NCBI GenBank assembly: GCA_008534395.1 | Contig: SHMQ01000016.1 | Span: 1 to 52,527, forward strand | Length of the DNA: 52,527 bases | Direction: 5' to 3' | Source: Candidatus Acidulodesulfobacterium acidiphilum | GTDB lineage: Bacteria; SZUA-79; Acidulodesulfobacterales; Acidulodesulfobacteraceae | The notes under the pieces: generated by a model | The model's input: only the letters and a program-made list of their open reading frames with translations | Told to the model about the DNA's origin: nothing | The model's database searches: none | Part shown: in pieces, positions 176 to 19,546 of the stretch | Position numbering within the stretch: the stretch's first letter is position 1 | Layout of the letters: each line of letters starts with the position of its first letter | Position numbers and translations under genes: made by a program

Positions 176-523
176 ATGAAATTTAAATACGATATAGAAT
201 ATATTACGAAAATTACCAAACTGAGCAAAGAGTTTATACTCGAACTCCTTAAATATTTCGACGGACTTCCTTTGCAGGCTAAACTCGAAGCGTTTTATAT
301 AAGCAAAATAATAGAAGAAGACGATGAATTTGCTTTTCATCAGCACTACTTCGATAAAGACAGATCTGCCGAATATGAATTCGCTCTGTTCATCCTGGGT
401 ATCGAAAGGATATATTCCGTAGAACATAGAAAAGAAGAAGCGGAAGCTCAAGGGAAAAAACTTTCCTCGTATAAGATAAATTTGATTTCAAAAATTACGG
501 AACTCAGGAAGCAGGATGATTAA
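176..523 (+). CDS. hypothetical protein, 115 aa
   Basis: I do not recognise this protein. It is small, charged and predicted soluble, rich in Lys/Glu with an acidic stretch (EEDDE) near residue 47 and a Lys/Glu-rich C-terminal helix. It shows no signal peptide, membrane segment or Cys/His metal motif. No clear Shine-Dalgarno precedes the ATG. Its last 8 nt overlap the start of the CbiA/DsrN-like gene at 516, which suggests translational coupling and supports it being real. It sits just downstream of tRNA-Ser fragments, so it could be the edge of an acquired segment; that is only inference. Confidence 0.5.
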   Translation: MKFKYDIEYITKITKLSKEFILELLKYFDGLPLQAKLEAFYISKIIEEDDEFAFHQHYFDKDRSAEYEFALFILGIERIYSVEHRKEEAEAQGKKLSSYKINLISKITELRKQDD

Positions 524-2006
524 GGTTGAAAATACCCAAAAATATAAAAAGAATAATAGAAATAATAATAGAAATATTATTAACGGAATTTACATTTCAG
601 CCGCTAAAAGGAATTCGGGTAAAACTACTATTTCTATAGCTCTGTCGCGTTTGTTGAGCAACAGGGGTTTATCCGTCCAGCCGTTCAAAAAAGGCCCTGA
701 TTTTATCGATCCAATGTGGCTGAATATAGCTTCGAGAAACAGGACGTATAATCTGGATTTCTATTTTATGTCCAAAGATAAAATCAGGAAACATTTCTTA
801 AAATATTCTTTAAATTCTGACATAAGCATAGTAGAAGGAAACCACGGCCTGCACGATTCGATAGATATTTACGGAAAATCGTCCAACGCCGAAATGGCGA
901 AACTGCTGGGACTTCCCGTTATACTTATTATAGACGTAGGAGAATTAAACAGAGGGGTTGTTCCTTTAATATTGGGTTATAAAGAATTTGATAAAAATGT
1001 TGATATCAAAGGCGTTATTCTTAATAAAGTCCACAGCAAAAGACACGAGAAAAATTTGCTTAGAGCTATTAAATATTATACCGATTTAAAGGTCGTAGGC
1101 AACATACCCAATAATCCTGAATTTTCAATAAAACAGAGGCATCTGGGGCTTTTATCGACGATGTCGGGCGGCGAAATAGAATCGTTGGTGGACAAGACTT
1201 CCGCCGAAATTGCGAACTATATAGATTTGGAAGGTATAATAAAAATGTCGAAATTTGCTGACAAACATTATACCGATGCCCAAAAAAAACCTATTTTAAA
1301 ATTAAACGCCGATAACGCAAAGCAAAAAAATAAAAGAAACGGCTTGATAAAAATAGGACTTGCTTTCGATAACGCTTTTAATTTTTATTATAACGAAAAT
1401 TTGGAAGCCCTTGAAAATCTCGGATGCGAATTGATTAAATTTTCTCCAATCTCCGATAAGCATTTGCCGGATATCGACGCATTATATATAGGCGGAGGAT
1501 TCCCTGAAATATTTTCCAATGAACTTCAAGATAATAAATCTATAAGAAATGAAATAAAACAAAAAATAGAAGAAGGTCTTCCCGTTTATGCAGAGTGCGG
1601 CGGACTCATGTATCTCTGCAAAAGCATTGCTTACGAAAATGGTTTTAACGAAATGACGGGCGTTATCGAAGCAGACGTAAAACTTACCAAAAAACCGAAG
1701 GGTCACGGATACACTAAATTAATGCCTTATTCATACGGAAAAGGAAAAAAAAGCCTCTGGTTCGATAAAATAAAATTAATAAAAGGGCATGAATTTCATC
1801 ATTCTTTTTTAGAAATGGCTCAAGACAAATATGAATTAGTATTTAAAATGAAAAAAGGTTACGGAGTTGACGGCTTCTCCGACGGTATAACATATAAGAA
1901 CGTTTTAGCCTGCTATACGCATATGTATTCTCCGTCTTCTCCGGGTTGGTTCAAAAACTGGGTTGCTTTTATAAAACAGATAAAAGCTATGTATATAAAA
2001 AAATAA
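516..2006 (+). CDS. dsrN: CbiA/CobB-family amidase, probable siroheme amidase DsrN
   Basis: This 496-aa protein has the layout of cobyrinate a,c-diamide synthase. It carries a P-loop ATP site (AKRNSGKTT, about residues 30-38), an ATP-dependent amidoligase core and a C-terminal class I glutamine amidotransferase domain with nucleophile Cys in YAECGGLMYL and a late His in CYTHMY. No other corrin genes are near, and the next gene is dsrA. In sulfur oxidisers the homologue DsrN, encoded in the dsr cluster, amidates siroheme for sulfite reductase, so that role is more likely here than B12 synthesis. The N-terminus carries a low-complexity Asn/Arg stretch from a perfect 12-bp tandem repeat (552-575). 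A cobalamin role cannot be excluded. Confidence 0.75.
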   Translation: MIKVENTQKYKKNNRNNNRNIINGIYISAAKRNSGKTTISIALSRLLSNRGLSVQPFKKGPDFIDPMWLNIASRNRTYNLDFYFMSKDKIRKHFLKYSLNSDISIVEGNHGLHDSIDIYGKSSNAEMAKLLGLPVILIIDVGELNRGVVPLILGYKEFDKNVDIKGVILNKVHSKRHEKNLLRAIKYYTDLKVVGNIPNNPEFSIKQRHLGLLSTMSGGEIESLVDKTSAEIANYIDLEGIIKMSKFADKHYTDAQKKPILKLNADNAKQKNKRNGLIKIGLAFDNAFNFYYNENLEALENLGCELIKFSPISDKHLPDIDALYIGGGFPEIFSNELQDNKSIRNEIKQKIEEGLPVYAECGGLMYLCKSIAYENGFNEMTGVIEADVKLTKKPKGHGYTKLMPYSYGKGKKSLWFDKIKLIKGHEFHHSFLEMAQDKYELVFKMKKGYGVDGFSDGITYKNVLACYTHMYSPSSPGWFKNWVAFIKQIKAMYIKK

Positions 2007-2179: not shown

Positions 2180-3370
2180 ATGGGTAAAAAGCACCAGACT
2201 CCGCTTCTTGATGAACTTAAGAAAGGGAAGTGGATAAGTTTCGTCAGGGAAATAGAAAGAGCGGCAGAAAAGAGCGAAAGAACCGAAGACCTTTTGGGGC
2301 AAGTTGAAGAATCTTACCATGACAAAGTAAATCACTGGAAACACGGCGGCATGGCGGGCGTTAAAGGATACGGCGCAGGTATGGTCGGTAGGTTCAGCGA
2401 ATATCCCGATAAATATCCGGGAATAAAAGAATGCCATTCTATGAGAATTATACCTTCAGCAGGTTTTTTCTATAATTCCGATTTTCTTAGAAAATTAGCC
2501 GATATTTCCGAAAAACACGCCGGCGGCTTGCTGAATTTTCACGGAGCTACCGGAAACATTCAGATACTTGGAATGTCTCAGGCAGAGGCTGAAGATGTTT
2601 TTCAGGCCGTAGCCGAACTAGGGTTTGACCTTGGCGGAAGCGGTTCGGATTTAAGAACGCCTTCATGCTGCGCGGGACAGGCAAGATGCGAATTTGCAAA
2701 TTTCGACACAATGAAAATTTGCCGTCATTTAACGGAAGAATATTTGGACGAGCTTCACAGGCCTGCGTTTAATTATAAATTTAAATTTAAATTTTCCGGA
2801 TGCGCTAACGACTGCGTTGCTTCTGCGGCAAGGTCAGATCTTGCTTTCATAGGAACATGGAAAGACAAAATAAAAATCAATCAGGAAGAAGTAAAAAATT
2901 ATAAAAAGAAATTCAACGTTCAAAAATATGTTCTAGATAAATGTCCTACAAAGTGCATGTGGTTTGAAGGAGAAAACCTTGTTATAGACGACGAAAACTG
3001 CGTAAAATGCATGCATTGTATAAATGAACTGCCTAAAGCTCTTAAAGCCGGCGACGAAAGAGGCTGCTCTATTTTAATTGGTGCAAAAGCGCCTTTGGTT
3101 ACCGGTCCTAGAATGGGTATGATGCTCGTTCCTTTTTACGACGTAAATGAAGATGCAAAGAACGATTACGAATGGATAAAATCATTAATTTCCAATATGT
3201 GGGAATTCTGGGATGAATACGGAGTCAGCAGGGAAAGAATAGGAGAGCTTATAGGAAGGGTTGGATTAAATACCTTCTTGGAAGGCATAGGATTAGAACC
3301 TATTCCTGAAATGGTCGAACATCCGAGAAGCAATCCGTTTATTAAATTTACCGAAGACGAAGAAGAATAG
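2180..3370 (+). CDS. dsrA: dissimilatory (bi)sulfite reductase alpha subunit
   Basis: DsrA pairs with DsrB in the cytoplasmic alpha2beta2 enzyme that reduces sulfite using electrons and the DsrC co-substrate. At 396 aa it has normal length. The siroheme-[4Fe-4S] site is visible as C164-x5-C170 (CCAGQARC) and C208-x3-C212 (GCANDC). The inserted ferredoxin domain has C255 and C259 followed by C274, C277 and C280 (CVKCMHC). AGGAGG lies 9 nt before the ATG. It heads dsrABD. Presence of dsrD and lack of dsrJOP argue for the reductive type, but dsrL and dsrEFH downstream make direction less certain; a DsrAB phylogeny would decide. Confidence 0.97.
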   Translation: MGKKHQTPLLDELKKGKWISFVREIERAAEKSERTEDLLGQVEESYHDKVNHWKHGGMAGVKGYGAGMVGRFSEYPDKYPGIKECHSMRIIPSAGFFYNSDFLRKLADISEKHAGGLLNFHGATGNIQILGMSQAEAEDVFQAVAELGFDLGGSGSDLRTPSCCAGQARCEFANFDTMKICRHLTEEYLDELHRPAFNYKFKFKFSGCANDCVASAARSDLAFIGTWKDKIKINQEEVKNYKKKFNVQKYVLDKCPTKCMWFEGENLVIDDENCVKCMHCINELPKALKAGDERGCSILIGAKAPLVTGPRMGMMLVPFYDVNEDAKNDYEWIKSLISNMWEFWDEYGVSRERIGELIGRVGLNTFLEGIGLEPIPEMVEHPRSNPFIKFTEDEEE

Positions 3371-3444
3371 TTTTAAATTATAAAATTAAAACAATAAATT
3401 AATAATTAACTTATTTAGTATCACATATAAATTTGGAGGTTAAT

Positions 3445-4530
3445 ATGGCAGAAGAAGTTAAAAAGAAGAGACTTACCGATATTGGACCCCATGATTACAA
3501 CGAATATTTGTCGCCGGTTATAAAAAATAATTACGGCAAATGGGCTTATCATGAGATTCTTGACCCAGGCACTATGGTGCACGTGGCGGAAAGCGGCGAT
3601 AAACTATATACGGTGAGAATGGGTTCGCCTAGATTAGTCAGCGGCAGTTTCGTGAGGGATATTTGCGATATCGCCGATAAATACTGCGGCGGACACTTAA
3701 GATTTACGACAAGAAATAACGTTGAATTTTTAATAGAAGATGAAAAAAACGTCGAACCGCTTAAAAAAGACCTTGAAAAAATGGGATATAACGTAGGCGG
3801 CATAGGCAATATCGTTGCAAATATAGTTCATACTCAGGGATGGGTGCACTGCCACACTTCCGCAAGCGATGCATCTGGCGTCGTAAAGTCCGTTATGGAC
3901 GAGTTGTATGAATATTTCGTCGAAGACAAACTTCCGTCAAAAGTAAGAATAGCGTTTGCCTGCTGTTTAAATATGTGCGGTTCTGTTTCGTCTTCGGACA
4001 TAGCTATAGTAGGAACACACAGAAAACCGCCGAGAATCGATGCGGAAAGACTCAGGAATCTTTGCGAAATACCCAGCACTATTGCCGCATGCCCCACAAA
4101 CTCTATCAGACCTGACACGGTTGACGGCAAACCGGGCGTAAAAGTAAACGAAGAAACCTGCGTATTCTGCGGAAGCTGTTATACCGTCTGTCCTGCTATG
4201 CCTATAGCTAACGCCGAAAACGACGGCTTATCGATTTGGGTCGGCGGAAAAGTATCCAATGCCAGAACTAAACCGACTTTCTCTAAATTAGCTATACCGT
4301 TTATCCCCAACGATCCTCCAAGATGGCCGGGAGTGGTAAACGCCGTTAAAACAATTCTTAACGAATATAAAAAAGGCGCAGAACCAGGTGAAAGAGTCGG
4401 CGAATGGATAGACAGGATAGGCTGGCCGAGATTCTTTAAGATTACCGGATTCCCGTTCACGAAATATCATATCGACGATTTCAGGCTCGGCGAAACTACT
4501 ATGAACTATTCTTCGCATGCCAGGCTGTAG
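3445..4530 (+). CDS. dsrB: dissimilatory (bi)sulfite reductase beta subunit
   Basis: I chose ATG 3445 (361 aa) because GGAGG at 3435-3439 sits the right distance before it; the longer frame from TTG 3433 would swallow that ribosome site. The siroheme/cluster region is visible in HTQGWVHCH (C136) and ACCLNMCG (C173, C174, C178). A ferredoxin domain follows, with C216 (ACPTN) and C239, C242, C245, C249 in [12 protein letters not shown]. The rest aligns by eye with known DsrB, including DASGVVK and the C-terminal WIDRIGW region. It is 74 nt downstream of dsrA and in the same operon. Confidence 0.97.
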
Positions 4531-4585: not shown

Positions 4586-4822
4586 ATGACTGATGAAACT
4601 AAAAAGAAAGTCGAAGATAAAATTTTAGGGCTTGTGACGGAATATGCAGGAAAAAAAAGGTTCAAGCCGATAGATATCGTCAAGGAAATGGAAAAGGAGT
4701 TTGCAAGCGAAGCTTTAACTAAAGACGATATTAAAGGAGCATTAAAAGACTTAATGGATGATGAAAAACTTGTTTACGGATATGCAGGCGGCAGTTTCCT
4801 GACGCTTCCGGAAAACAAGTAA
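4586..4822 (+). CDS. dsrD: DsrD, small winged-helix protein
   Basis: This 78-aa protein matches DsrD in size, position right after dsrB, and sequence: basic N-terminal helix, KEMEKEF segment, and an ending of KLVYGYAGGSFLTLPE. DsrD has a winged-helix fold and acts as an allosteric activator of DsrAB in sulfate reducers. It is generally taken as a marker of the reductive pathway and is missing from most sulfur oxidisers. The start is fixed by AGGAG at 4573-4577. Confidence 0.93.
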   Translation: MTDETKKKVEDKILGLVTEYAGKKRFKPIDIVKEMEKEFASEALTKDDIKGALKDLMDDEKLVYGYAGGSFLTLPENK

Positions 4823-4944: not shown

Positions 4945-6657
4945 ATGCTTGAATTAAAAAAACCGAAAAAACCGGCAAAAATTGCGGCGAGTACAGGCGG
5001 CGGAATGTCTCAGTCGCCGTACAGACCTAAATACGTCGAAAAAAGACCCCCGTGCATGGATACTTGTCCTAATGGAACAAAGGTTAGAGATTATATTCAG
5101 CTTATAGCGCAGAGCGAGTCTTACGACAGGCCTGTAGACGACTCATTAAAACAGGCTTTTTATATGCTTACGGAGTCCAATCCTCTTCCTTCGACGACCG
5201 GAAGAGTATGTCCCCATCCGTGTGAAGACGCATGCAACAGAAAAGAAAAAGATACGCCGGTAGCGATTAATGCTATAGAAATGTTTGTAGGAGATTACGG
5301 AATAAAAAATAATCTTCAGTATAAAAAATTAACCGAAGTAAAAAGAAAAGAAAAAATTGCGATAATAGGAAGCGGTCCTGCAGGTTTATCTGCCGCATAT
5401 CATCTTGCGTTAAGGGGATACGGCATTACTATTTTTGAAAAGTTTCCGGAAACAGGCGGATATTTAAGATATGGAATACCCCGTTTCAGGCTTCCGTTAG
5501 ATATTATAGACGCGGAAGTCCAGCGCATTAAGAATCTTGGCGTTGAAATTAAAACCGGCGTCGGTATAGGCACTGACATAACGTTAGACAGTCTTAAGTC
5601 GGAATATGACGCCGTATTTATAGCTATAGGAACCCACGAACCTATAAAAATGAAGATGAAAGGCGCGGATTCTCCTAATGTTTATACCGGAATTGAATTT
5701 CTGCAGAAAGCGGCTTCCGGAGAAATTAAAGATGCCGGTAAAGAAGTGGTAGTTATCGGAAGCGACAGCGCAATGGATGCCGGAATGGTTGCAAAAAGAC
5801 TCGGCGCCAACGTTACTTTTATATACAATAAAGGCACGGTTAACGATGCATCCGAAATAGAAGAAAAAGGTTCTACGGAAGTAAAAGAAGGACACGCCGA
5901 GGGAATAAAATTCGAATTTTTATTTGCGCTCGACGAGATAGTTACGGAAAACGGCAAAGCTGTTGCCGTAAAGCTTAAAAAAATGAAACTTTCGGAAAAA
6001 GATGCTTCGGGCAGGGTTCATCCTATAATAATAGAAGGCGGGCAGGAACTTAATTTAAAATTAGACACTTTAATATATTCTTTCGGTCAAAAGCCCGATT
6101 ATAAAGGTTTAGAAAATCTGACTAAAAATCCGAATAACGAATTTTTAAAAGTTGACGATAATTATTTAGTCGCAGGCGAAGATAAAGTATTTGCCGGCGG
6201 CGATATATTAAGGTTCGGTCTCGTTACGGACGCTATAGGAATGGGAAGATATGCCGCATACGCTATACATAAAAAGTTTAGCGGAGAACAGGTTATTAAC
6301 GACGAAAGAAGAGTTATAAAGTACGGCGACGCTGTAAACAGGGAAGGGAAAAATATGTATCTTGCGTATTTTCAGCCGGCCGAAAGAAAGAAGAGGACGT
6401 CCAGAGATCCTAAAGAAAGAGTTAAAGATTTTGAAGGCATTTTAAACGACCTTAATTTCGACGAATTAGTTTCGGAAGTAAAGAGATGCATGAGCTGCGG
6501 ATTATGCTTCGACTGCGGCAGCTGTTTTGAATACTGCTCGCAGAGCGCAGTTAAAAAATTGCCGAAAGGTCAGCATTTCGAGTTTCACCTTGAGACGTGC
6601 AACGGTTGCAAAAAATGCGCCGAAAGCTGTCCCTGCGGTTATATAGATATGCTGTAA
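4945..6657 (+). CDS. dsrL: DsrL-like Fe-S flavoprotein, NAD(P)H:DsrAB oxidoreductase
   Basis: The 570-aa protein has a GltD-type layout. An N-terminal Fe-S domain has C37, C41, C89, C93 and C97. The FAD Rossmann motif GSGPAG is at 142-147, and a second dinucleotide domain starts near 268. A C-terminal Cys-rich ferredoxin domain has C515, C518, C524, C527, C531 and C552, C555, C558, C562. DsrL passes electrons between NAD(P)H and sulfite reductase; DsrL-2 forms occur with dsrD in reducers. The C-terminal ferredoxin and the position between dsrD and dsrC separate it from ordinary glutamate synthase small subunit. The second Rossmann motif is odd (GSDSAMDAG), and NKG replaces the arginine pair that often marks NADPH-binding relatives. 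Confidence 0.8.
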   Translation: MLELKKPKKPAKIAASTGGGMSQSPYRPKYVEKRPPCMDTCPNGTKVRDYIQLIAQSESYDRPVDDSLKQAFYMLTESNPLPSTTGRVCPHPCEDACNRKEKDTPVAINAIEMFVGDYGIKNNLQYKKLTEVKRKEKIAIIGSGPAGLSAAYHLALRGYGITIFEKFPETGGYLRYGIPRFRLPLDIIDAEVQRIKNLGVEIKTGVGIGTDITLDSLKSEYDAVFIAIGTHEPIKMKMKGADSPNVYTGIEFLQKAASGEIKDAGKEVVVIGSDSAMDAGMVAKRLGANVTFIYNKGTVNDASEIEEKGSTEVKEGHAEGIKFEFLFALDEIVTENGKAVAVKLKKMKLSEKDASGRVHPIIIEGGQELNLKLDTLIYSFGQKPDYKGLENLTKNPNNEFLKVDDNYLVAGEDKVFAGGDILRFGLVTDAIGMGRYAAYAIHKKFSGEQVINDERRVIKYGDAVNREGKNMYLAYFQPAERKKRTSRDPKERVKDFEGILNDLNFDELVSEVKRCMSCGLCFDCGSCFEYCSQSAVKKLPKGQHFEFHLETCNGCKKCAESCPCGYIDML

Positions 6658-6733
6658 ATGAAGCTTTTAAATATTTTTAAATATGATGTAATGAATTCAA
6701 ATAAATTAAATTTAATTTTAATGGAGGTTATTT

Positions 6734-7075
6734 ATGGCAAGTTTTGTTTATAACGGAAAAACGATAGAAACGGATGACGAAGGTTACCTTCAGAATCTTG
6801 GAGATTGGGACAAAGGTCTTGCTGAAGTTCTTGCGAAACAGGAAAATGTAGAATTAACCGAAAAACACTGGAAATTAATTGAATGGATAAGGGATTACTT
6901 TCAGAAATTTCAGGTTGCGCCTGCTATTAAATCGCTGACGAAAGAAGTCATGAGCCTTGAAAATTTACCGGACAAAAAAGAAGCAAATAAATTCATTTAT
7001 GAATTATTTCCCGAAGGCCCGGCAAAACAGCTTGCAAAAATATCGGGTCTTCCAAAACCGACAGGCTGCGTTTAA
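6734..7075 (+). CDS. dsrC: DsrC/TusE-family protein lacking CysB
   Basis: This 113-aa protein has the DsrC fold signature (GYLQNLGDW, YELFPEGPAKQ) and ends in GLPKPTGCV, with the penultimate CysA at residue 112. In classical DsrC a second cysteine, CysB, lies 11 residues earlier. Here that position is Ala101 (QLAKISGLP). DsrC normally carries sulfite-derived sulfur as a trisulfide between the two cysteines, which DsrMK then reduces; a one-cysteine arm resembles TusE, which only relays persulfide. The gene sits inside the dsr cluster with a GGAGG site, between dsrL and dsrM. A canonical second dsrC elsewhere in the genome is possible. It is the only other cysteine-free CysB position I can see in the cluster and the reading frame is intact. 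Confidence 0.88.
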   Translation: MASFVYNGKTIETDDEGYLQNLGDWDKGLAEVLAKQENVELTEKHWKLIEWIRDYFQKFQVAPAIKSLTKEVMSLENLPDKKEANKFIYELFPEGPAKQLAKISGLPKPTGCV

Positions 7076-7180: not shown

Positions 7181-7942
7181 ATGGAACCTCTTAATGTAAC
7201 CACCGCCATATACTTATTTATTACTTATTCGGTCGGTTTAGTTTTCGTTATAGGCGTAGTTTTAAGAATATATAAATATGCAACGACGCCTCAGCCTATT
7301 AAAATTATGCTGACTCCTGCTCCGCTAACTAAAAGCGGCGCATTTGCCAGAGTTTTGGGAGAAGTTTTTTTCTTTAAAAGTCTCTATAAATCAAATAAAC
7401 CTACTTGGATATTCGGATACCTGTTTCATATTTCATTTTTTCTTTTGATAGCAATGCATTTTGCGCGCCATTTTGTATATACAAATCCTCTGCCTTCATG
7501 GTATAACTATTTCGTTATATCGGGTATAGTCTGCGGCATAGTTATGGTTATCTCTCTATTTGTTTTAATAATGAGAAGAATCGTGGTAGAAAGAGTAAAA
7601 TTTATATCTCTTTTTCAGGATTATTTAATATTAATTTTATTAATGCTTATCGGTATAGCCGGTCTGTCTTTGAACTTTGCATTAACGCCTGCTGCTTTGA
7701 CCGTGGTCGATAAACAGCTTGGTCCATATATGGACGGTCTTTTAACGTTTAAATTTACGAATATACCGTCAAATCCTTTATTTTTGATACATTATACACT
7801 GGTAATGCTTCTTATTCTATATATACCGTTTAGCAAAGTGATGCATTTCATCGGAATATTCTTTTCGCCGACAAGAAATATGGCAGATAATCCTATAGAA
7901 GAAAGATACTATCGTCCAAATGCAAAGGATCTGTCTATATAA
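7181..7942 (+). CDS. dsrM: DsrM, membrane cytochrome b subunit
   Basis: The 253-aa integral membrane protein has about five hydrophobic segments and belongs to the NarI/DsrM cytochrome b family. Candidate haem ligands are H83, H93, H97, H204 and H222. DsrM takes electrons from menaquinol and passes them to DsrK at the inner face of the membrane. It is short for the family. A strong ribosome site (GGGGGAG) precedes the ATG, and dsrK follows 67 nt later. No dsrJ, dsrO or dsrP is next to it, giving the minimal DsrMK form. Confidence 0.88.
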   Translation: MEPLNVTTAIYLFITYSVGLVFVIGVVLRIYKYATTPQPIKIMLTPAPLTKSGAFARVLGEVFFFKSLYKSNKPTWIFGYLFHISFFLLIAMHFARHFVYTNPLPSWYNYFVISGIVCGIVMVISLFVLIMRRIVVERVKFISLFQDYLILILLMLIGIAGLSLNFALTPAALTVVDKQLGPYMDGLLTFKFTNIPSNPLFLIHYTLVMLLILYIPFSKVMHFIGIFFSPTRNMADNPIEERYYRPNAKDLSI

Positions 7943-8009: not shown

Positions 8010-9497
8010 ATGGCTAAACCGAAAAGTAAATATAAAGTACCGGTATTGGACGGAAATATTTCGATACCGAAGATAGTTCCAGGAGCATCTTCATATGAAC
8101 ATATGATAGGAGCGCAGAAAGAAGATATGGAAGCGCTCGGTTTTCCCGCGAAACTGCAAGACGGCTGGAAAGATAAAGCTCTTGGAGTATTTAAACAGAT
8201 ATTGGACCACAATAAGGCCGTTAGGGATTATATGGATATATGCGTAAGATGCGGAGCTTGCACTGATAAATGCCAGTTTTTTTTAGGAACGTCCGACCCT
8301 AATAATATGCCGGTTCAAAGACAGGAGTTGATGAGAAAGGTTTATAGATATTATTTTACGCCGTCCGGATTTTTTAAAAGCCTTTCAAATTCGCAGGAAT
8401 TGACTGAAGAAGTTTTGAAAGAATGGTACACATACTTCTGGCAGTGTTCGGAGTGCAGAAGGTGTTCGGTGTTTTGTCCTTACGGCATAGATACGGCAGA
8501 AATTACAATGGCGGCAAGGCAGATTATGGACTCTATAGGCCTCGGACAAAAATACACTACAGAAGTTATTCACAAAGTATATACTACCGGAAACAATATA
8601 GGAATAAATGCCGCAGCGTTGAGAAATACTCTTGACGACTTAGAAGAAGAAATAGAAGAAGAAGGCGGAAAAGGTGTAAAAATTCCGATGGACGTAGAAG
8701 GAGCGGAAGTTTTGCTTGTTCCCCCGTCGGCTGATTTTTTTGCTATGCCGCATATGGAATCTCTGAAGGGATATGCAAAAGTGTTTCATAAAGCAGGTAT
8801 AAGTTATACTGTTTCTTCCTATGCATCAGAAGCGGGTAATTTCGGAAAGTTTATAGGAAGTTATCAAAACACCAAAGAAATCAATAAAAGGATATGGGAT
8901 GAGGCAAGAAGACTTAAGGTAAAGAGAGTCATTATAGGAGAATGCGGACATGCATGGAGAGCAGCCTATATGTATTCCAATACTATGAATGGTCCCTTCG
9001 ATTTTCTTGATTCAAAATATAAACAGCCCACCCATATTTGCGAATTCACTTTAGGGCTTGTAAAAGACGGAGTTATAAAGCTAGATCCAACCGCAAACGA
9101 CGATAAAGTCGTTACGTTTCACGATTCCTGCAATGTAGCGAGAGGTTCCAGAATAGGCGACGTCGTAGGCGGACAATTTACTATACCGAGAGAATTAATA
9201 AAAGCCGCCGCAAATAAATTCGTGGAATTAAGAGAAGGCACTACTAAAGAAAGCACTTTTTGCTGCGGTGGAGGCGGGGGATTATTGACTGAAGAAGTGA
9301 TGAACGTAAGGCTGGCAGGTTCAATGCCGAGAATGCAAACGGTTAAAGAAGCGGTAGATAATCACGGAGTAAATTTTTACGCCTTGATTTGCGCAATATG
9401 CAAAACCCAGTTTTCCAAGGTATTCCCGTTGTACGGCTTAGATGCCGAAATGGTCGGCGGTATTCATCAGTTAGTCAGCAACGCTATAATAATGTAG
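8010..9497 (+). CDS. dsrK: DsrK, HdrD-like Fe-S catalytic subunit
   Basis: DsrK is the HdrD-like subunit thought to reduce the DsrC trisulfide with electrons from DsrM. This 495-aa protein has two [4Fe-4S] ferredoxin motifs (C78, C81, C84, C88 and C146, C149, C152, C156, the latter ending in CP). A C-terminal CCG-type site follows, with C374, C418-C419 (CCGGGGG) and C461/C464 (CAIC) for the noncubane cluster. GGAGG precedes the ATG at 8010. It is paired with dsrM upstream. That its presumed substrate DsrC in this operon lacks CysB is a puzzle described in the findings. Confidence 0.93.
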   Translation: MAKPKSKYKVPVLDGNISIPKIVPGASSYEHMIGAQKEDMEALGFPAKLQDGWKDKALGVFKQILDHNKAVRDYMDICVRCGACTDKCQFFLGTSDPNNMPVQRQELMRKVYRYYFTPSGFFKSLSNSQELTEEVLKEWYTYFWQCSECRRCSVFCPYGIDTAEITMAARQIMDSIGLGQKYTTEVIHKVYTTGNNIGINAAALRNTLDDLEEEIEEEGGKGVKIPMDVEGAEVLLVPPSADFFAMPHMESLKGYAKVFHKAGISYTVSSYASEAGNFGKFIGSYQNTKEINKRIWDEARRLKVKRVIIGECGHAWRAAYMYSNTMNGPFDFLDSKYKQPTHICEFTLGLVKDGVIKLDPTANDDKVVTFHDSCNVARGSRIGDVVGGQFTIPRELIKAAANKFVELREGTTKESTFCCGGGGGLLTEEVMNVRLAGSMPRMQTVKEAVDNHGVNFYALICAICKTQFSKVFPLYGLDAEMVGGIHQLVSNAIIM

Positions 9498-9629: not shown

Positions 9630-9980
9630 ATGAAATTCGGCATTCTTATTAAAGAAGGCCCTTATATGCATCAGGCTATGGACACAGCCTATAATTTTAT
9701 ATTAGCGGCTATGGAAAGCGGGCATGAAATAACGGGCATATTTTTTTATAACGACGGAGTTTATAACAGATGTGCGACGCTTGAACCGCCGAGAGACGAA
9801 AGAAATATTATGAAACTCCTTACGGAATTAGAATTGAAAGGAGTCAGATTAATAGTCTGCGTTGCGGCCGGAAAAAGAAGAGGCATAGTCAATCAGACCG
9901 TATGTAAAGTGGAAGAAATATCCGGACTGGGACAATTGTTAGAACTGTGCATAACATCCGACAGAACTATAACTTTTTAA
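9630..9980 (+). CDS. dsrE: DsrE/TusD-like sulfurtransferase subunit
   Basis: This 116-aa protein begins MKFGILIKEGPY and has the conserved segment LIVCVAAGKRRGIV, with C77 at the position of the active DsrE/TusD cysteine that carries persulfide. It ends at a GLGQL motif and short C-terminal strand. DsrE, DsrF and DsrH form an alpha2beta2gamma2 complex that hands sulfane sulfur to DsrC (or TusE) in the cytoplasm. It is the first gene of dsrEFH. It is a little shorter than sulfur-oxidiser DsrE because the segment after RRGIV is reduced. GGGGAGG precedes the ATG. Confidence 0.88.
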   Translation: MKFGILIKEGPYMHQAMDTAYNFILAAMESGHEITGIFFYNDGVYNRCATLEPPRDERNIMKLLTELELKGVRLIVCVAAGKRRGIVNQTVCKVEEISGLGQLLELCITSDRTITF

Positions 9981-10019: not shown

Positions 10020-10394
10020 ATGTCAGAACAAGAAAAAACTAAAGTTATGTTTGTATGCAGAACCGCTCCGTACGGTACTATATACGAACAGGAAGCTATA
10101 GAAGCCATGGTTATGTTCGGCGCATACGAACAGGATATAAGCGTAACATTTACCGGAGACGGAGTATTTTCGTTGAAAAAAGGGCAGGATACTTCACTTC
10201 TGGGAAAGAAAAATTTTTCAATGACTTATCCTATATTAATAGACGACTTTGAAATTTCGCATATATACGTAGAAAAAGAGTCTCTCGAAGAAAGAGGTAT
10301 GTCCGAAAGCGATCTTGCTACCGAAGTTGAGATAATAGACAGAAATACATTGAAGCAAAAGATGAGAGAAATGAAAGCGTTACTGCCGTTTTAA
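10020..10394 (+). CDS. dsrF: DsrF/TusC-like subunit
   Basis: The 124-aa protein fits the DsrF/TusC family: an N-terminal VMFVCRTAPYGT strand-turn, then EAIEAMVMFGAYEQDISVTF and GDGVFSLKKGQ, the Rossmann-like half that packs against DsrE. It has one cysteine (C13) and no catalytic cysteine is known for this subunit. It is between dsrE and dsrH with short spacers and AGGAG before the ATG, so the three are translated together. Assignment rests on size, order and these motifs. Confidence 0.85.
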   Translation: MSEQEKTKVMFVCRTAPYGTIYEQEAIEAMVMFGAYEQDISVTFTGDGVFSLKKGQDTSLLGKKNFSMTYPILIDDFEISHIYVEKESLEERGMSESDLATEVEIIDRNTLKQKMREMKALLPF

Positions 10395-10446: not shown

Positions 10447-10746
10447 GTGCTGCACATAGTAAAAAAATCTCCGTACGAATCTTCCGCATTCAGCGATGCG
10501 ATAAACTACATAGAGCAAAACGATATAATGCTTTTAACCGAAGACGGAATATATGCCGCAAAAAAAGGCGGAAAATTTGAAGGAGCGTTAAAAAACCTTA
10601 TGCAAAAAAATGCCGTTTACTGTCTTATAGCCGATATAAAAGCAAGAGGAATTCAGGAAAGCGAAATAATAGAAAACGTAAAAGTAATAGATTATAAAGG
10701 CTTTGTAGAAAAAGTTACCGAACATAATCCGATGACATGGGCGTAA
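10447..10746 (+). CDS. dsrH: DsrH/TusB-like subunit lacking the DsrH cysteine
   Basis: This 99-aa protein starts with GTG after AAGGAGG and opens MLHIVKKSPYES, followed by LLTEDGIYAA and LIADIKARGI, the DsrH/TusB pattern. Sulfur-oxidiser DsrH proteins have a cysteine near residue 20; here the aligned segment SAFSDAINYI has none, and the only cysteine is at 59 (VYCLIAD). The C-terminus NPMTWA resembles TusB more than DsrH. It closes the dsrEFH set, 90 nt before sat. With the one-cysteine DsrC it suggests a Tus-like relay. Confidence 0.85.
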   Translation: MLHIVKKSPYESSAFSDAINYIEQNDIMLLTEDGIYAAKKGGKFEGALKNLMQKNAVYCLIADIKARGIQESEIIENVKVIDYKGFVEKVTEHNPMTWA

Positions 10747-12060: not shown

Positions 12061-12152
12061 TTCAGTTATAATTTTATATTGCCGGCATAATATAAAGGCG
12101 ACAATATATATTCTTATAAAAAAACAAAATATAAAATTAAGGAGGTATGGAA

Positions 12153-12587
12153 ATGCCAAGTTTTGTAATTACGGAAAAGTGCGACGGATGCAAAGGCAGA
12201 GACAAGACTGCCTGTCAGTATATCTGTCCGAACGACCTTATGGTTTTAAATAAGGACATTATGAAGGCTTACAATCAAGAGCCAGACCAGTGCTGGGAGT
12301 GCTATAGCTGCGTAAAAATTTGTCCGCAGTCTGCCATCGAAGTAAGATCTTATCAGGATTTTGCGCCGTTGGGTGCGTCCGTTATTCCTATGAGAGGTTC
12401 CGATTCGATTATGTGGACGGTAAAATTCAGAAACGGAAAAATTAAAAGGTTTAAATTTCCGATAAGAACTACTCCTGAAGGCGGTATCGATCCGTATCAT
12501 GGAATAGCCGAGGTAAACCAGGGCAGTTTGAAAGACGAGCGTCTATGCGACGAACTTGGGGTTGAACTTACGGCACCCAAGAAATAA
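12153..12587 (+). CDS. aprB: adenylylsulfate reductase beta subunit
   Basis: AprB is the Fe-S subunit that passes electrons from QmoABC to AprA. I prefer ATG 12153 (144 aa) over ATG 12147 because GGAGG at 12141-12145 is 7 nt from 12153 but only 1 nt from 12147. The protein starts MPSFVITEKCDGC and carries two [4Fe-4S] motifs: C10, C13, C19 and C23 with the second set in CWECYSCVKICPQ. The C-terminal tail from about 60 wraps AprA in known structures. aprA follows by 64 nt. Confidence 0.95.
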   Translation: MPSFVITEKCDGCKGRDKTACQYICPNDLMVLNKDIMKAYNQEPDQCWECYSCVKICPQSAIEVRSYQDFAPLGASVIPMRGSDSIMWTVKFRNGKIKRFKFPIRTTPEGGIDPYHGIAEVNQGSLKDERLCDELGVELTAPKK

Positions 12588-12651
12588 AGAATTAAAAGAC
12601 ATTTTATTTATTTATAATTAAAATAATTTATAATTTGCGAGGATAAATTGT

Positions 12652-14577
12652 ATGGCTGAAATGAAAGGTTCAATGACCAGCACCGAAGTTTTGAACAATT
12701 ATACCATAGAAGAAATCAGTACCGACGTCTTAATAGTCGGGGGCGGTATGGTAGGTTGCGGAGCCGCATTCGAAATTAAAAAATGGGCGCCGAAAGATAT
12801 GAAAATAACGATGATAGAAAAAGCTGCCATAGAAAGAAGCGGCGCGGTAGCAATGGGTTTGTCCGCTATTAACACTTATTTGGGAGATAACACGCCCGAA
12901 GATTACGTTAAACACGTGGCTAACGACCTTATGGGTATAGTCAGGGAAGACCTTATATACGATACAGGCAGGCACGTAGATTCTACCGTAAGACTTTTTG
13001 AAAAATTCGGACTTCCGATATTCAAAGAAGACGAAGACGACACAAGAACTATTGAAGAAGGCGCAAAACCTTTAAGAGCCGGAAGATGGCAGATAATGAT
13101 TCACGGAGAGTCCTACAAAGTACTTGTTGCCGAAGCGGCAAGAAAAGCTCTCGGCGAAGAAAACATCAAGGAAAGAGTCTTTATTACCGAACTTCTTATG
13201 GACGAAAAGCATGAAAACAGAGTTGCGGGAGCAATCGGTTTCAGCTTAAGAGAAGCAAAGATATATATTATAAAAGCAAAAGCCGTAATTATGGCTTGCG
13301 GCGGAACGGTTAACGTTTTCAGGCCGAGGTCTCAGGCGGAAGGTATGGGAAGAACATGGTATGCAATATGGAATGCCGGTTCTACCTATGCTATGGGATA
13401 TCAGGCAGGAGCCGAAATGACAACGATGGAAAACAGATTCGTTCCAAACAGATTTAAAGACGGATATGGACCCGTCGGCGCATGGTTTACGCTCTTTAAA
13501 TCCAGAGTTTTAAATGCTCACGGAGAGGACTACATGCAAAAATGGGGACATATGCTGCAAGACTACGCTCCTTACGGACTAGCGAAAGTCCCCGCAACAT
13601 GTTTATGGAACCATGTCATGCTTAAAGACTGGATGGAAGGAAACGGCCCGTTCTATATGAATACGTCAGGCGCTATGAAGACGCTTTTTGAAACCCTTCC
13701 CGAAAAGAGAAAGAAATCTCTTGAAGCCGACGCATGGGAAGATTTCCTTGATATGACGGTTGCGCAGGCCGGATTATGGGCATCTATGGATATAGATCCA
13801 GGCGAAACTAATTCCGAGGTTATGCCTACAGAGCCGTATTTCTTAGGTTCTCATTCCGGAGCTTGCGGAATGTGGGTTTCAGGACCAGAAGATTTAGCTC
13901 CTAAGGAATATCAATGGGGTTATAACCGCATGACGACCGTTAACGGCCTTTTCACCGGCGGAGACGGCGTTGGAGCATCCGGACACAAATTCTCTTCAGG
14001 TTCATACGTAGAAGGAAGAATTGCGGCAAAATCGGCAGTCAGGTTTGTACTTGACGATCCGGGCTTTACTCCGACGGTTCATACCGACAATAAAGTTCTT
14101 GCCGAAAAAGTGTACGGGCCGATGATAACTTTTGAAAAATTCAAAGACTATTCTACCGAGTCAAACGTAAATCCTAATTATATTAAACCGAGACTTTATT
14201 TGTTCAGATTGAATAAACTTATGGACGAATACGTCGCCGGTACTTCGACGTTCTACAGAACAAGCGAAGCCAGTCTTTTAAGAGGGTTAGACCTTTTAAA
14301 CAGATTGAAAGAGGATGCGCCTAAACTTGCGGCCGCAAATCTCCATGAACTTATGAGAGCATGGGAAAATTACCACAGGTCTATAGTCGGCGAACTTCAC
14401 TTAAGGCACGTACTGTTCAGAGAAGAAACAAGATATCCGGGATTCTATTACAGAACCGACCATCCGAAACTTGACGAACAGAACTGGAAGGTGTTCGTCA
14501 ATTCAAAATTAAATAAAACGACCGGACAGCCGGAATTGTTTAAAAAGCCTTATATTGAAATCGTACCGAAAAACTAA
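12652..14577 (+). CDS. aprA: adenylylsulfate reductase alpha subunit
   Basis: AprA is the FAD subunit reducing APS to sulfite and AMP in the cytoplasm. The 641-aa protein has the fumarate-reductase-family FAD motif GGGMVGCG (30-37), the IEKAAIERSGAVAMG segment that follows it, and a long substrate domain including FTGGDGVGASGHKFSSGS. Length and sequence fit AprA. It follows aprB and ends at a clear hairpin before qmoA, so aprBA may form its own transcript segment. Confidence 0.97.
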   Translation: MAEMKGSMTSTEVLNNYTIEEISTDVLIVGGGMVGCGAAFEIKKWAPKDMKITMIEKAAIERSGAVAMGLSAINTYLGDNTPEDYVKHVANDLMGIVREDLIYDTGRHVDSTVRLFEKFGLPIFKEDEDDTRTIEEGAKPLRAGRWQIMIHGESYKVLVAEAARKALGEENIKERVFITELLMDEKHENRVAGAIGFSLREAKIYIIKAKAVIMACGGTVNVFRPRSQAEGMGRTWYAIWNAGSTYAMGYQAGAEMTTMENRFVPNRFKDGYGPVGAWFTLFKSRVLNAHGEDYMQKWGHMLQDYAPYGLAKVPATCLWNHVMLKDWMEGNGPFYMNTSGAMKTLFETLPEKRKKSLEADAWEDFLDMTVAQAGLWASMDIDPGETNSEVMPTEPYFLGSHSGACGMWVSGPEDLAPKEYQWGYNRMTTVNGLFTGGDGVGASGHKFSSGSYVEGRIAAKSAVRFVLDDPGFTPTVHTDNKVLAEKVYGPMITFEKFKDYSTESNVNPNYIKPRLYLFRLNKLMDEYVAGTSTFYRTSEASLLRGLDLLNRLKEDAPKLAAANLHELMRAWENYHRSIVGELHLRHVLFREETRYPGFYYRTDHPKLDEQNWKVFVNSKLNKTTGQPELFKKPYIEIVPKN

Positions 14578-14723: not shown

Positions 14724-16019
14724 TTGAGCGAGCTAAATAATGAAAATGCCGTATTAATAATCGGCGGCGGGCATAGCGGCGTATCGGCAGCATTAGAAAT
14801 TACCGAGGCGGTCGATAAAAAAGTATATATAGTAGAAAAAAAATCGTATATCGGCGGCAGGGTTCTCCAGATGTATAAGTATTTTCCAAAATTGTGCCCC
14901 CCCTTTTGCGGCTTTGAAATCAATACGAAAAGAATAAAGTCGTCTACCGAAGGAAATATAAATTTTTTAGTTTCTTCAAACGTCGAAGAAATAACAAAAG
15001 CGAAAGAAGGAACCGGATATAAAGTAAAAATAAAACAAAAACCGCAGTATATAAACGATAACTGCACGGTATGCGGAGAATGCGCTAAGGTTTGCCCTGA
15101 AGAAAGACCTAACGATTTCAATTACGGCATGGATAACACAAAAGCTATATATCTGCCTGCGATATCTTCTTTTCCGCTTAAATACAGCGTAGATGATAAA
15201 TACTGCAAATTTTCGGCATGTAAAAAATGCGAAGAAGCATGCAGATACAGTGCTATCAACTTGGATGCAAAAGAGAACGTTATCGAATTAACCGTATCGG
15301 ATATCATATTTGCAACGGGCTGGAAGCCTTATGAAGTTGAAAAATTAGAAAATTTGGGATACGGTAAATATAAAAACGTTATTACAAACGTAAAAATGGA
15401 AAGGCTTGCCGCAGAAAACGGTCCTACCGGCGGAAAAATTTTAAGGCCGTCCGACAGAAAGGAAGTTAAAAACGTGGCGTTTATTCAATGCGCAGGCTCA
15501 AGAAACGAGAACCATCTTCCATATTGCTCCGCAATTTGCTGCATGGCATCCTTAAAGCAGGCGATGTATTTGAGGGATAAAAATCCTGAATCCTCGCCGG
15601 TCATATTTTATATAGATTTAAGAACGCCGGGCAGATACGAAAATTTTTTAAACAAAGTTAAAAGCGACGAAAAAATAAAATTTAATAAAGGAGTAGTCGG
15701 CAAAATATCCGAAGACCATGAAACCGGCGACCTTCTTTTAGACGTCGAAGATATGATTTCCGGCAAAAAAAATAAAGTCAGGGCGGAAATGGTGGTTCTT
15801 GCCGCCGGAATGGCGTCAAACATCAAAGACGACCTTAAGGAAATAAAAATAGACGAAGATATTAAAATAGATATCGATGAAAACGGATTTATATTTAACG
15901 ATAATTTTAAACAAGGAATATTTTCGGCAGGCGTAGCAAGATTTCCTCTGGATGTTTATATGTCGGGACAATCGGCGACGTCGGCGGCATTATCGGTAAT
16001 TCAGCATAACGCAAAATAA
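14724..16019 (+). CDS. qmoA: QmoA, HdrA-like flavoprotein
   Basis: QmoA is a soluble FAD/Fe-S subunit of the quinone-interacting membrane-bound oxidoreductase that delivers menaquinol electrons to AprBA. This 431-aa protein begins at TTG 14724, with GGAG 8 nt upstream; the nearby ATG 14710 hits a stop at once. It has the FAD motif IIGGGHSG (12-19), a Cys-rich segment CTVCGECAKVCP and CKFSACKKCEEAC, and a second nucleotide half. Gene order qmoA-qmoB-qmoC just after aprBA is the standard sulfate-reducer arrangement. Confidence 0.94.
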   Translation: MSELNNENAVLIIGGGHSGVSAALEITEAVDKKVYIVEKKSYIGGRVLQMYKYFPKLCPPFCGFEINTKRIKSSTEGNINFLVSSNVEEITKAKEGTGYKVKIKQKPQYINDNCTVCGECAKVCPEERPNDFNYGMDNTKAIYLPAISSFPLKYSVDDKYCKFSACKKCEEACRYSAINLDAKENVIELTVSDIIFATGWKPYEVEKLENLGYGKYKNVITNVKMERLAAENGPTGGKILRPSDRKEVKNVAFIQCAGSRNENHLPYCSAICCMASLKQAMYLRDKNPESSPVIFYIDLRTPGRYENFLNKVKSDEKIKFNKGVVGKISEDHETGDLLLDVEDMISGKKNKVRAEMVVLAAGMASNIKDDLKEIKIDEDIKIDIDENGFIFNDNFKQGIFSAGVARFPLDVYMSGQSATSAALSVIQHNAK

Positions 16020-16060
16020 TAAAAGATATTATTATAGATATTATTTAGGAAGGAGTTAAA

Positions 16061-18367
16061 ATGGATAATAATTTGGGGATTTATATATGTTCCGGCTGCG
16101 ATATCGGAAAAAGTCTTAATGTGGAAAGATTAATCAATACCGCGAAAGATTCCAATAAGCCTTTAGTATGCGTAAGCCATGAGTTTCTCTGCGGACCGGA
16201 AGGCATAAATCTCATAAAAAACGATATTTCCGAAAAAAAGATAAATAAAGTAGTAATAGCCGCCTGTTCGATGCGCGCCAAACAGGACGTTTTTAATTTC
16301 GACCAGTTTACTATTCATACCGAAAGGGTAAACTTAAGAGAGCACGTTATATGGATAAGCCCGCCGAACGATAATAATACCCAGCTTCTTGCCGAAGATT
16401 ATATAAATATGGGTGCATCGAGAGCAAAAAAATCTGCATTTCCGGAACCTTTAATTCAGGAGCTTAACAAAACCGTTCTCGTAGTAGGCGGCGGAGTTAC
16501 CGGTTTAAACGCATCCGTCAACGCCGCAAAAGCGGGTTACGGCGTAATTCTTGTCGAAAAAAAGCAGAATCTCGGCGGATTTCCTTTTTCAAAATATAAA
16601 AAATGGGAAACCAAGCCGCCTTTCGATAAAAATACTTGGATAATGGAAGGATTAGGCGAGCTGATAAACGAAGCGGAAAAATCCGATAAAATAAAAATAT
16701 ATAAAAATTCTAAAATTAAGTCTATATCGGGAGCTCCCGGCAAATTCAACGTAGAAATAGAATCGTCGGAAGGAAATTCAGGTTCTGAGCCTGTTAAAGA
16801 GATTGCGGGTTCTATCGTCGTTGCCACAGGCTGGAAGCCTTACGACGCAAAAAAATTAGATAATCTTGGATACGGGTTAACGCCGGATATTTTAACAAAC
16901 GTAGAATTAGAGGAACTTTTTTCCGAACTTTCAGACAACGGAAAATCCGAAAATTTTGCATTAAAAAGAAAATCGGACGGCAAGCCGGTTAAGTCGGTAT
17001 TGTTTGTTCAGTGTGCGGGTTCAAGGGACGAAAATCATCTTCCTTACTGTTCGACCGTTTGCTGTATGTCTTCCTTAAAAGAAGCCGCTTTAATCAGAAA
17101 GAACAATCCAGATGCAAATGTTTACATTATATACAAAGATATGAGAACTATGGGCGAATACGAAAACTTTTACAGAAAAATGCAGGACGACGAAGGTATT
17201 TTTATGGTTAAAGGCATTGTATCCGGCGTATCGCTCGACAAGAGCGGAAATACCATTGGCGTTAAAGTAAAAGATACCCTCTTTGGAGGAGATATCGATA
17301 TAAATACGGAAATGGTAGTTCTCGCTACGGGTATGGTTCCGAATTCCGGAGAGATAGAATTAAAAGATAATGCCGCATCTTTAAACGTAGGAAACATACA
17401 GTCTGCAAGCGGAGCATCCTGCCCGCCTTCCGTGCCCGTTTCGACGGCTCAGGTTCCGAAAAGCGGCTTGTTAAACCTTTCCTACAGGCAGGGTAAAGAA
17501 ATGCCCGACCTTGTTTACGGATTTCCGGATTCAAATTTTATATGCTTCCCCTACGAATCAAGAAGGACGGGAATATATCCCGCCGGTTCGGTAAGAATGC
17601 CTTTAGATACGGTTTTTTCGGTTGACGATGCTAAAGGAGCGGTTTTAAAGGCTATACAATGCATCGAGCAGACTTCTAAAGGCAGGGCGGTTCACCCCCG
17701 TTCAAACGATACTACATACCCATTTTTTGACCTTCCAAGATGTACGCAGTGTAAAAGATGCACCGAAGAATGTCCTTTCGGCGCAATAGACGAAGACGAA
17801 AAAGGAACGCCGCAGTATAATCCGGAAAGATGCAGGAGATGCGGCATATGCATGGGCGCATGTCCCGTAAGAATAATATCGTTTAAAAATTATTCGCCGG
17901 ATATTATAGGTTCTATGATTAAAAGCACGTACGTTCCGGAAGATCCGACCGACGAAAATTACAGGATACTTGTGTTTGCATGCGAAAACGACGCTTATCC
18001 TGCATTAGACGTACTTGGATTAAATAAAATGCAATTATCTTCCAATATAAGGGTTATTCCGGTAAGATGTCTCGGCTCTATAAATAACGTATGGTATGCC
18101 GATGCTCTTTCGAAAGGCATAGACGGCATTCTTTTGCTGGGCTGTAAATACGGAGACGACTATCAGTGCCATTTCACGAAAGGTTCGGAACTGGCTTCTT
18201 ACAGAATGGGAAACCTGAAGGAAACACTTACAAGGCTTGTTCTGGAAGAAGAAAGAGTCAGGCAGGTTCAGCTCGAATATACCGACTATATGAAACTGCC
18301 GGAAATAGTCGAAGACTTCGTTAATAAAGTTAAATCTCTTGGACCAAATCCATATAAAGGCTTTTAA
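16061..18367 (+). CDS. qmoB: QmoB, HdrA-like with MvhD-like C-terminus
   Basis: The 768-aa QmoB has an N-terminal HdrA-type region with SGCDIG and AACSMRAKQ, an FAD motif VVGGGVTGLN (141-150), and a second flavin half with QCAGSRDENHLPYC. Around 560-610 come two ferredoxin motifs (CTQCKRCTEECP and CRRCGICMGACP). The last 125 or so residues resemble MvhD, the delta subunit of methyl-viologen hydrogenase, with RCLGS and GCKYGDDYQCH. It shares much of its core with QmoA, as expected for these paralogues. AGGAAGGAG precedes the ATG, and qmoC follows by 15 nt. Confidence 0.94.
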   Translation: MDNNLGIYICSGCDIGKSLNVERLINTAKDSNKPLVCVSHEFLCGPEGINLIKNDISEKKINKVVIAACSMRAKQDVFNFDQFTIHTERVNLREHVIWISPPNDNNTQLLAEDYINMGASRAKKSAFPEPLIQELNKTVLVVGGGVTGLNASVNAAKAGYGVILVEKKQNLGGFPFSKYKKWETKPPFDKNTWIMEGLGELINEAEKSDKIKIYKNSKIKSISGAPGKFNVEIESSEGNSGSEPVKEIAGSIVVATGWKPYDAKKLDNLGYGLTPDILTNVELEELFSELSDNGKSENFALKRKSDGKPVKSVLFVQCAGSRDENHLPYCSTVCCMSSLKEAALIRKNNPDANVYIIYKDMRTMGEYENFYRKMQDDEGIFMVKGIVSGVSLDKSGNTIGVKVKDTLFGGDIDINTEMVVLATGMVPNSGEIELKDNAASLNVGNIQSASGASCPPSVPVSTAQVPKSGLLNLSYRQGKEMPDLVYGFPDSNFICFPYESRRTGIYPAGSVRMPLDTVFSVDDAKGAVLKAIQCIEQTSKGRAVHPRSNDTTYPFFDLPRCTQCKRCTEECPFGAIDEDEKGTPQYNPERCRRCGICMGACPVRIISFKNYSPDIIGSMIKSTYVPEDPTDENYRILVFACENDAYPALDVLGLNKMQLSSNIRVIPVRCLGSINNVWYADALSKGIDGILLLGCKYGDDYQCHFTKGSELASYRMGNLKETLTRLVLEEERVRQVQLEYTDYMKLPEIVEDFVNKVKSLGPNPYKGF

Positions 18368-18382
18368 GATAGGGAGGATATT

Positions 18383-19546
18383 TTGAATAACACAGTTATT
18401 AAGACCGACAACGAGTTGGTTAAATATATAAAAGAAGTAGGCGAAAGCAATTTTAAAAAATGCTTTCAGTGCGGCACGTGTTCCGCGGTATGTCCTTTGT
18501 CGACGGAGGACAGGCCGTTTCCGCGAAAAGAAATGATAATGGCGGGATGGGGAATGAAAGAACAGCTGACCGCCGATTTAGACCCGTGGTTATGCTATTA
18601 TTGCGGTGAATGTTCCAAGAACTGTCCAAGGAAAGCAGAACCGGGCGAACTTATGATGTCGCTGCGCCGTTTTTTAATAAGCGCATACGACTGGACGGGG
18701 ATTTCCAAAATATTATATAAGTCTAAATATGCAGAGTACATCGCAATATTAATAGTAGCGCTGGGAGTTTTGCTTGAGTGGGCGGTTATATTCGGACTTC
18801 ATCCTGCCGCCGGAGCGACTCTTGCGCAGGCGGTATCTCCTGATAAAGTAGATTATTTCTTTGACTGGCCTATATCGGCTTTTCTTGCAATTATGCTGAC
18901 GTCTTTCATATACAATATGTACCGCAAGACGGTATTGAGCGATAAAAGCGTGAAAATCCCTTTGAGTCTTTACGTTACTGAGGCTTGGTCGTTAATATTC
19001 AATTTTTTTACGCAGTACAGATATGCAAAATGCGACGATTCCGAAGAGTCTGCATCAAAAAAACTTGCTTCGGGAAAGTATAATTTTTGGCTTGCGCATC
19101 TTTTTTTAATGATAAGCTATGTATCCCTGTTTGTAGCCATCGTTTTTTTCTTAGACTGGTTTCAAAGCGAAAACAGCATGCCGTATCTTCATATAGTTTT
19201 ATTCGATTATTTTGCCAGTATAGGATTAATTTTCGGAACTATATATTTTATAATTAAAAGATTTTCTAAGAAAATAGAAAGAAGCAAATTTTCCCATCAT
19301 ACCGACTGGATGTTCGTAACGCTGTTGTTCTTAACCGCAGTCAGCGGAGTTTTGCTCAGGGCGGCTATAGTTTATAACTATTCGGTATCGGCTATTTTTT
19401 ATATATACCTGATTCATTTAATGATATTATTTCCGATGCTTGTAATAGAAGTTCCTTTTTCTAAATGGTCGCATCTTGCTTACAGACCGGTTGCCGTATA
19501 TTTTGCAAATTTAAAAGAAAAAGCTAAAAACCTAAGCAATAATTAA
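18383..19546 (+). CDS. qmoC: QmoC, fused HdrC and cytochrome b
   Basis: QmoC anchors the Qmo complex and takes electrons from menaquinol. The 387-aa protein starts at TTG 18383 after GGGAGG. An N-terminal HdrC domain has C27, C30, C33, C37 and C70, C73, C76, C80 for two [4Fe-4S] clusters. From about 118 on there are roughly six membrane helices of the HdrE/NarI type with several His residues for haem b (for example in FWLAHLFLM and IHLMILFP). The N-terminal and membrane parts being fused in one chain is the normal QmoC form. Confidence 0.94.
   Translation: MNNTVIKTDNELVKYIKEVGESNFKKCFQCGTCSAVCPLSTEDRPFPRKEMIMAGWGMKEQLTADLDPWLCYYCGECSKNCPRKAEPGELMMSLRRFLISAYDWTGISKILYKSKYAEYIAILIVALGVLLEWAVIFGLHPAAGATLAQAVSPDKVDYFFDWPISAFLAIMLTSFIYNMYRKTVLSDKSVKIPLSLYVTEAWSLIFNFFTQYRYAKCDDSEESASKKLASGKYNFWLAHLFLMISYVSLFVAIVFFLDWFQSENSMPYLHIVLFDYFASIGLIFGTIYFIIKRFSKKIERSKFSHHTDWMFVTLLFLTAVSGVLLRAAIVYNYSVSAIFYIYLIHLMILFPMLVIEVPFSKWSHLAYRPVAVYFANLKEKAKNLSNN

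Follow-up and report, generated by a model that had tools for sequence, protein, structure and literature searches.

The DsrC encoded in the dsr operon of Candidatus Acidulodesulfobacterium acidiphilum keeps the penultimate cysteine of its arm, CysA, and has alanine at the position of the other, CysB. In the accepted view, sulfite reduction is coupled to energy conservation through the DsrC trisulfide, and with a single cysteine an intramolecular trisulfide is impossible in this protein. These sequence facts are solid, and from them we infer a mechanism. We lean, if only slightly, toward the reading that the lineage has no DsrC but this derived one-cysteine form, which would still serve DsrAB, by a CysA-persulfide route.

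The one-cysteine DsrC and its operon

The window, the whole stretch of 52,527 nucleotides that was analyzed, carries a compact cluster in the order dsrN-A-B-D-L-C-M-K-E-F-H-sat-aprB-aprA-qmoABC. It corresponds to the Ca. Acidulodesulfobacterales dsr operon as given in passages of PMC6776010, PMC7596348, and PMC10504309, and consists of the following features:

516..2006, + strand: dsrN, a CobB/CbiA-type amidase (cobB model TIGR00379; operon position)
2180..3370, + strand: dsrA (TIGR02064, 485.9 bits, cut-off 392.85)
3433..4530, + strand: dsrB (TIGR02066, 496.8 bits, cut-off 341.5)
4586..4822, + strand: dsrD-like gene, 78 aa (position; 34-58% identity to genes of other dsr loci; no Pfam match)
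4945..6657, + strand: dsrL type 2, with YNK replacing YRR (family models; motif)
6734..7075, + strand: dsrC, one-cysteine form, CysA = C112, CysB position = Ala101 (translation, TIGR03342, predicted fold)
7034..7036, + strand: GCA codon of Ala101, the CysB position (translation; synonymous variants across the lineage)
7067..7069, + strand: TGC codon of Cys112, the penultimate CysA (translation)
7181..7942, + strand: dsrM, short form (family searches; under the NCBIfam DsrM cut-off, 99.9 of 300)
8010..9497, + strand: dsrK, CCG cysteines C374, C418, C419, C461, and C464 intact (NF045796, 529.1 bits, cut-off 400)
9630..9980, + strand: dsrE/tusD, conserved cysteine of the CVAAGKRRG motif present (family models, motif)
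10020..10394, + strand: dsrF/tusC (TIGR03010, 106.3 bits, cut-off 94.15)
10447..10746, + strand: dsrH/tusB, without the Cys20 needed in A. vinosum (family models; PMC3397948)
10837..12060, + strand: sat (sequence and synteny, no family search)
12147..14577, + strand: aprB and aprA (sequence and synteny, no family search)
14724..19546, + strand: qmoA, qmoB, and qmoC (domains only)

Much of this arrangement has been described for Ca. Acidulodesulfobacterales. Passages of earlier studies report reductive DsrAB, dsrD, dsrL, and dsrEFH (PMC6776010, PMC7596348), the YNK motif in DsrL (PMC7596348), and DsrMK only, with DsrJOP absent (PMC10504309). The missing CysB is unmentioned in the searched passages of PMC6776010, PMC7596348, and PMC10504309; closed-access papers may mention it.

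Translation of 6734-7075 yields 113 amino acids with the C-terminus GPAKQLAKISGLPKPTGCV. The penultimate C112 (CysA) is the sole cysteine of the entire protein, and Ala101 (GCA) stands 11 residues before it, at the site of CysB in dissimilatory DsrC. Together with the translation, the alignment, which is ungapped at this position, confirms the original prediction of a DsrC that has CysA and carries alanine at the CysB site; it also rules out a frameshift or alignment gap there. The further claim of a substitution rather than a frameshift, made from the GCA codon, is borne out by the lineage, whose codons vary synonymously. Likewise, a base-call error or pseudogene is ruled out by the alanine in all family loci, the synonymous codons, and a low dN/dS.

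The protein passes the DsrC/TusE family model TIGR03342 (135.1 bits, cut-off 53.5) and misses the TusE equivalog NF008562 (107.8 bits, cut-off 191). Its high-confidence structure prediction (mean pLDDT 91) shows the DsrC fold. All eight significant Foldseek matches in the PDB belong to the DsrC family, the best being 1yx3, 2xsj, 1sau, and 2v4j, with probability 1.00 and TM-scores by query length of 0.80-0.84 against known DsrC structures. Dissimilatory DsrC (A. fulgidus 1sau, D. vulgaris 2v4j chain C, A. vinosum 1yx3) has the same fold, and it also shares the penultimate CysA, the GLPKPTGCV end, and the place in a dsr operon. In contrast to dissimilatory DsrC, the clade of the window protein has Ala or Val at the CysB site and a 2-residue insertion upstream of the arm, and the window protein has no other cysteine.

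Loss of CysB in SZUA-79 and in Desulfurella

In the databases, the closest sequences come from MAGs assigned to SZUA-79 and to Ca. Acididesulfobacter; this group is the Ca. Acidulodesulfobacterales, known from acid mine drainage. Alignment of the lineage's DsrC at the CysB position gave alanine in all 47 fetched family loci, which come from many assemblies, and in the 45 where the codon was read it is GCT (16), GCC (19), or GCA (10). The median pairwise dN/dS of family dsrC is 0.054; the gene is under purifying selection in the family. What had been presented as a single odd gene was thus correctly observed but too narrowly framed, since the substitution is a trait of the whole clade.

Of 30 family genomes, 22 carry both DsrC and dsrA, and six carry neither. 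The remaining two have one alone: in G010 (59% complete) DsrC was matched and dsrA was not, and G006 has dsrA without DsrC, its fetched locus breaking off just past dsrB, as it would where a contig ends. MnmA is present in all six genomes that lack dsrA and DsrC/TusE, which means that their tRNA thiolation does not depend on DsrC/TusE. The one-cysteine dsrC is tied to dsrAB in the family, with no two-cysteine DsrC alongside. A whole-genome search of the 100%-complete genome to which the window belongs found this one DsrC, which rules out a second DsrC with both cysteines. It thereby speaks against the idea, raised originally, that this copy has a relay or TusE role while another DsrC works with DsrAB. 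The constant position of the gene also opposes that idea: in every family locus whose contig shows both neighbors, it is flanked by dsrL and dsrM within the dsr cluster. A viral scan found no phage-borne relatives.

A survey of 386 genomes gave 26 dsrA carriers outside the SZUA-79 family, 25 of them with a DsrC match. A two-cysteine DsrC was read in 24 of these 25 dsrA genomes of other phyla; the sole exception was G262, which belongs to a small separate phylum in the genome set and whose dsrA sits at 1.362 Mb of 1.816 Mb. Strong but indirect evidence identifies G262 as D. acetivorans and G533 as D. amilsii. The dsr-operon DsrC of Desulfurella ends RQLVRYAGLSKPTGCV, with valine at CysB, and the second DsrC ends KKAAKIAGIKKPVGCV, with alanine; CysB occurs in none of the Desulfurella DsrC found, operon or second copy. 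Alanine (SZUA-79) or valine (the Desulfurella dsr-operon copy) is fixed at the position. DsrC was absent from the 150 and 61 Campylobacterota genomes where Desulfurella was first sought. In 395 genomes from a phylum with many sulfate reducers, the two-cysteine arm pattern was found 197 times and the one-cysteine pattern, which recovers the window gene and 50 of 54 clade loci and would miss T-starting codons at the CysB site (e.g. TCN serine), was found 0 times.

In a tree built without the CysB column, the operon DsrC of SZUA-79 and Desulfurella form one clade (100/100), which is found again, with the same support, when the whole arm is removed. The 2-residue insertion is common to both and missing from the other alignment rows, and the stem branch of the clade is long (0.63). 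Close branching of the SZUA-79 and Desulfurellales DsrC was already known (passages of PMC10504309). The second DsrC of Desulfurella and relatives (L168, L176, L184, L178-L180) resembles the window DsrC in having alanine at CysB, but unlike it lies outside the dsr operon and in a separate clade (100/97). TusE also stands apart from the one-cysteine clade in the best tree, which implies three changes at CysB (one-cysteine clade, TusE, and second-copy clade) on about 100 columns. Because the data do not reject trees that join the one-cysteine clade with TusE, the second-copy clade, or both (p-AU 0.19 to 0.29), we do not claim that the losses of CysB were independent.

Possible routes for sulfur through a one-cysteine arm

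In the canonical scheme, sulfite is converted to a DsrC trisulfide with both cysteines oxidized, and a membrane complex then reduces them and frees sulfide (PMC5516251). In A. vinosum, CysA alone takes sulfur from DsrEFH and binds sulfite, and CysB is dispensable there (PMC3397948). Given that a one-cysteine arm cannot hold an intramolecular trisulfide and that CysA alone suffices in A. vinosum, we favor a CysA persulfide, in which form sulfite-derived sulfur would exit DsrAB in place of the trisulfide. The DsrAB share of electrons would rise because a second DsrC thiol cannot donate any: per sulfite, ~4 electrons would come from DsrAB, which the adjacent DsrL feeds, and ~2 from DsrMK, compared with the canonical 2 and 4. 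The substrate of DsrMK would be either the CysA persulfide or a mixed disulfide between CysA and a further thiol. The DsrE-family proteins, encoded next to the one-cysteine DsrC in each lineage, would exchange sulfur with CysA, which would permit the oxidative direction too. The full proposal, that sulfite reduction by DsrAB runs wholly without an intramolecular DsrC trisulfide, with a CysA persulfide as carrier and a shift of the split from 2+4 to ~4+2, is tentative, and we rate its chances a little short of even. Our literature search found no biochemistry on a one-cysteine DsrC working with DsrAB. Of the two alternatives originally offered, a relay or TusE role and a variant route of sulfite reduction, the variant route is the one that we favor, and the same loss in Desulfurella strengthens it.

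We compared cysteines of the partner proteins in 24-28 one-cysteine loci and 11-17 two-cysteine loci. DsrAB, DsrL, and DsrK retain their cofactor cysteines, and DsrA, DsrB, DsrD, DsrL, DsrM, and DsrK showed no replacement cysteine that is fixed in the clade but lacking outside it. C374, C418, C419, C461, and C464 of DsrK are kept, as in two-cysteine partners of the same subtype; C344 and C464 were rejected as special to the one-cysteine clade, since those partners also have them. DsrL-like genes adjoin two-cysteine dsrC too, and their presence therefore does not single out a one-cysteine route. At residues 107 and 174 of the window DsrA, cysteines that are common elsewhere are replaced in the one-cysteine clade by Ala/Val and Asn/Thr. 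We rejected these sites as compensation, since cysteines are lost there, and the losses do not strictly follow that of CysB.

The main rival to the CysA persulfide keeps the canonical chemistry but places it between molecules: a trisulfide CysA-S-S-S-X would join two DsrC, or DsrC and another thiol, and DsrMK would reduce it with four electrons. With no replacement cysteine in DsrA, DsrB, DsrD, DsrL, DsrM, or DsrK, the second thiol would belong to another DsrC, a small thiol, or another protein. The DsrK CCG domain, a disulfide-type site, is intact and does not differ from the one in two-cysteine partners of its subtype. An unchanged DsrK suits a disulfide or trisulfide as substrate no less than a persulfide, which counts against the reading that we favor. 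However, in the 2v4j DsrAB-DsrC complex the arms reportedly enter the siroheme channel one at a time, and reaction with the second thiol would have to wait until DsrC has left DsrAB; we consider such a trisulfide unlikely. Less likely still is an oxidative-only carrier, in which a DsrE-family protein would load CysA and DsrAB/DsrL would oxidize the persulfide to sulfite, DsrC having no part in reduction. The genome offers dsrEFH, which adjoin the one-cysteine dsrC in SZUA-79, as well as dsrL in the operon and eight TusA-family matches, and sulfur transfer to CysA needs no CysB (PMC3397948). Yet passages on the lineage give its DsrAB as reductive in type, with dsrD present (PMC6776010, PMC10591310). 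Moreover, the cultured D. amilsii, whose DsrC (DESAMIL20_1431) is of the same clade, respires thiosulfate (PMC5317093), with which passages of PMC5317093 and PMC10504309 link its DsrAB. The Desulfurella operon loci gave no dsrEFH match (in D. acetivorans, DsrE plus DsrE2 follow dsrK, and DsrE2 follows the second dsrC), and the oxidative scheme likewise passes through a trisulfide (PMC13293266).

DsrAB alone is able to reduce sulfite in vitro. DsrAB/DsrL might convert sulfite to sulfide almost or entirely unaided by DsrC, which would be accessory or regulatory, and the long stem branch of the clade would agree with this. We regard it as very improbable, because the low dN/dS, an arm intact except around CysB, and the fixed dsrMK synteny point to continued arm chemistry. 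Least probable of all is a TusE of the tRNA 2-thiouridine pathway that lies in the dsr operon by chance. TusE of Gammaproteobacteria resembles the window DsrC in its one arm cysteine, its match to TIGR03342, and its TusBCD/DsrEFH-type partners; most family members have a DsrH without Cys20, and the data do not reject a clade uniting these sequences and TusE (p-AU 0.21 to 0.25). Gammaproteobacterial TusE, however, has Thr or Ser at the CysB site, with ends such as KPVKCI and KPAKCL (KP-x-K/R-C), whereas the window DsrC has Ala and ends PTGCV; it occurs without DsrAB, whereas the window DsrC goes with dsrAB in its family. The six MnmA-bearing family genomes without dsrAB lack DsrC, and the window protein falls under the TusE cut-off and apart from TusE in the best tree, all of which opposes this part of the original prediction.

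Consequences and further observations on the loci

CysB has been described as present only in organisms with DsrAB, the position being otherwise almost always Ala, Ser, or Thr (PMC3397948). An entire sat-apr-qmo-dsr lineage and a cultured genus, which have DsrAB and no CysB, are an exception. If the proposed route is correct, the energy yield would shift along with the electron split for the whole acidophilic lineage and the cultured genus. D. amilsii can be cultured and respires thiosulfate, which makes the need for the trisulfide directly testable. At least one study kept solely two-cysteine DsrC for its tree (PMC5516251), and a phage survey interprets a DsrC without one of the cysteines as probable TusE (PMC8190135); such filters, or naming TusE by its cysteines, would hide or misname the one-cysteine clade.

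Several features of individual loci were also recorded. DsrL is of two kinds in the family, ~50% identical, one with YNK (window, 4945-6657) and one with YRR (L046). Cys20 of DsrH, essential in A. vinosum (PMC3397948), is retained in L046, L052, and L053. One of the TusA-family matches in the genome contains an in-frame TGA (G000:C1:11959-12162, L118). In D. acetivorans (G262), the second one-cysteine dsrC (L188, 4036-4817) is followed directly by a DsrE2-family gene (PF13686), and dsrC is present in L187 although PMC5317093 lists DsrC, DsrM, and DsrK as not encoded. In the same locus (4848-8920), dsrK and dsrL are split across frames, which fits the reported inability of D. acetivorans to respire thiosulfate, or an assembly error.
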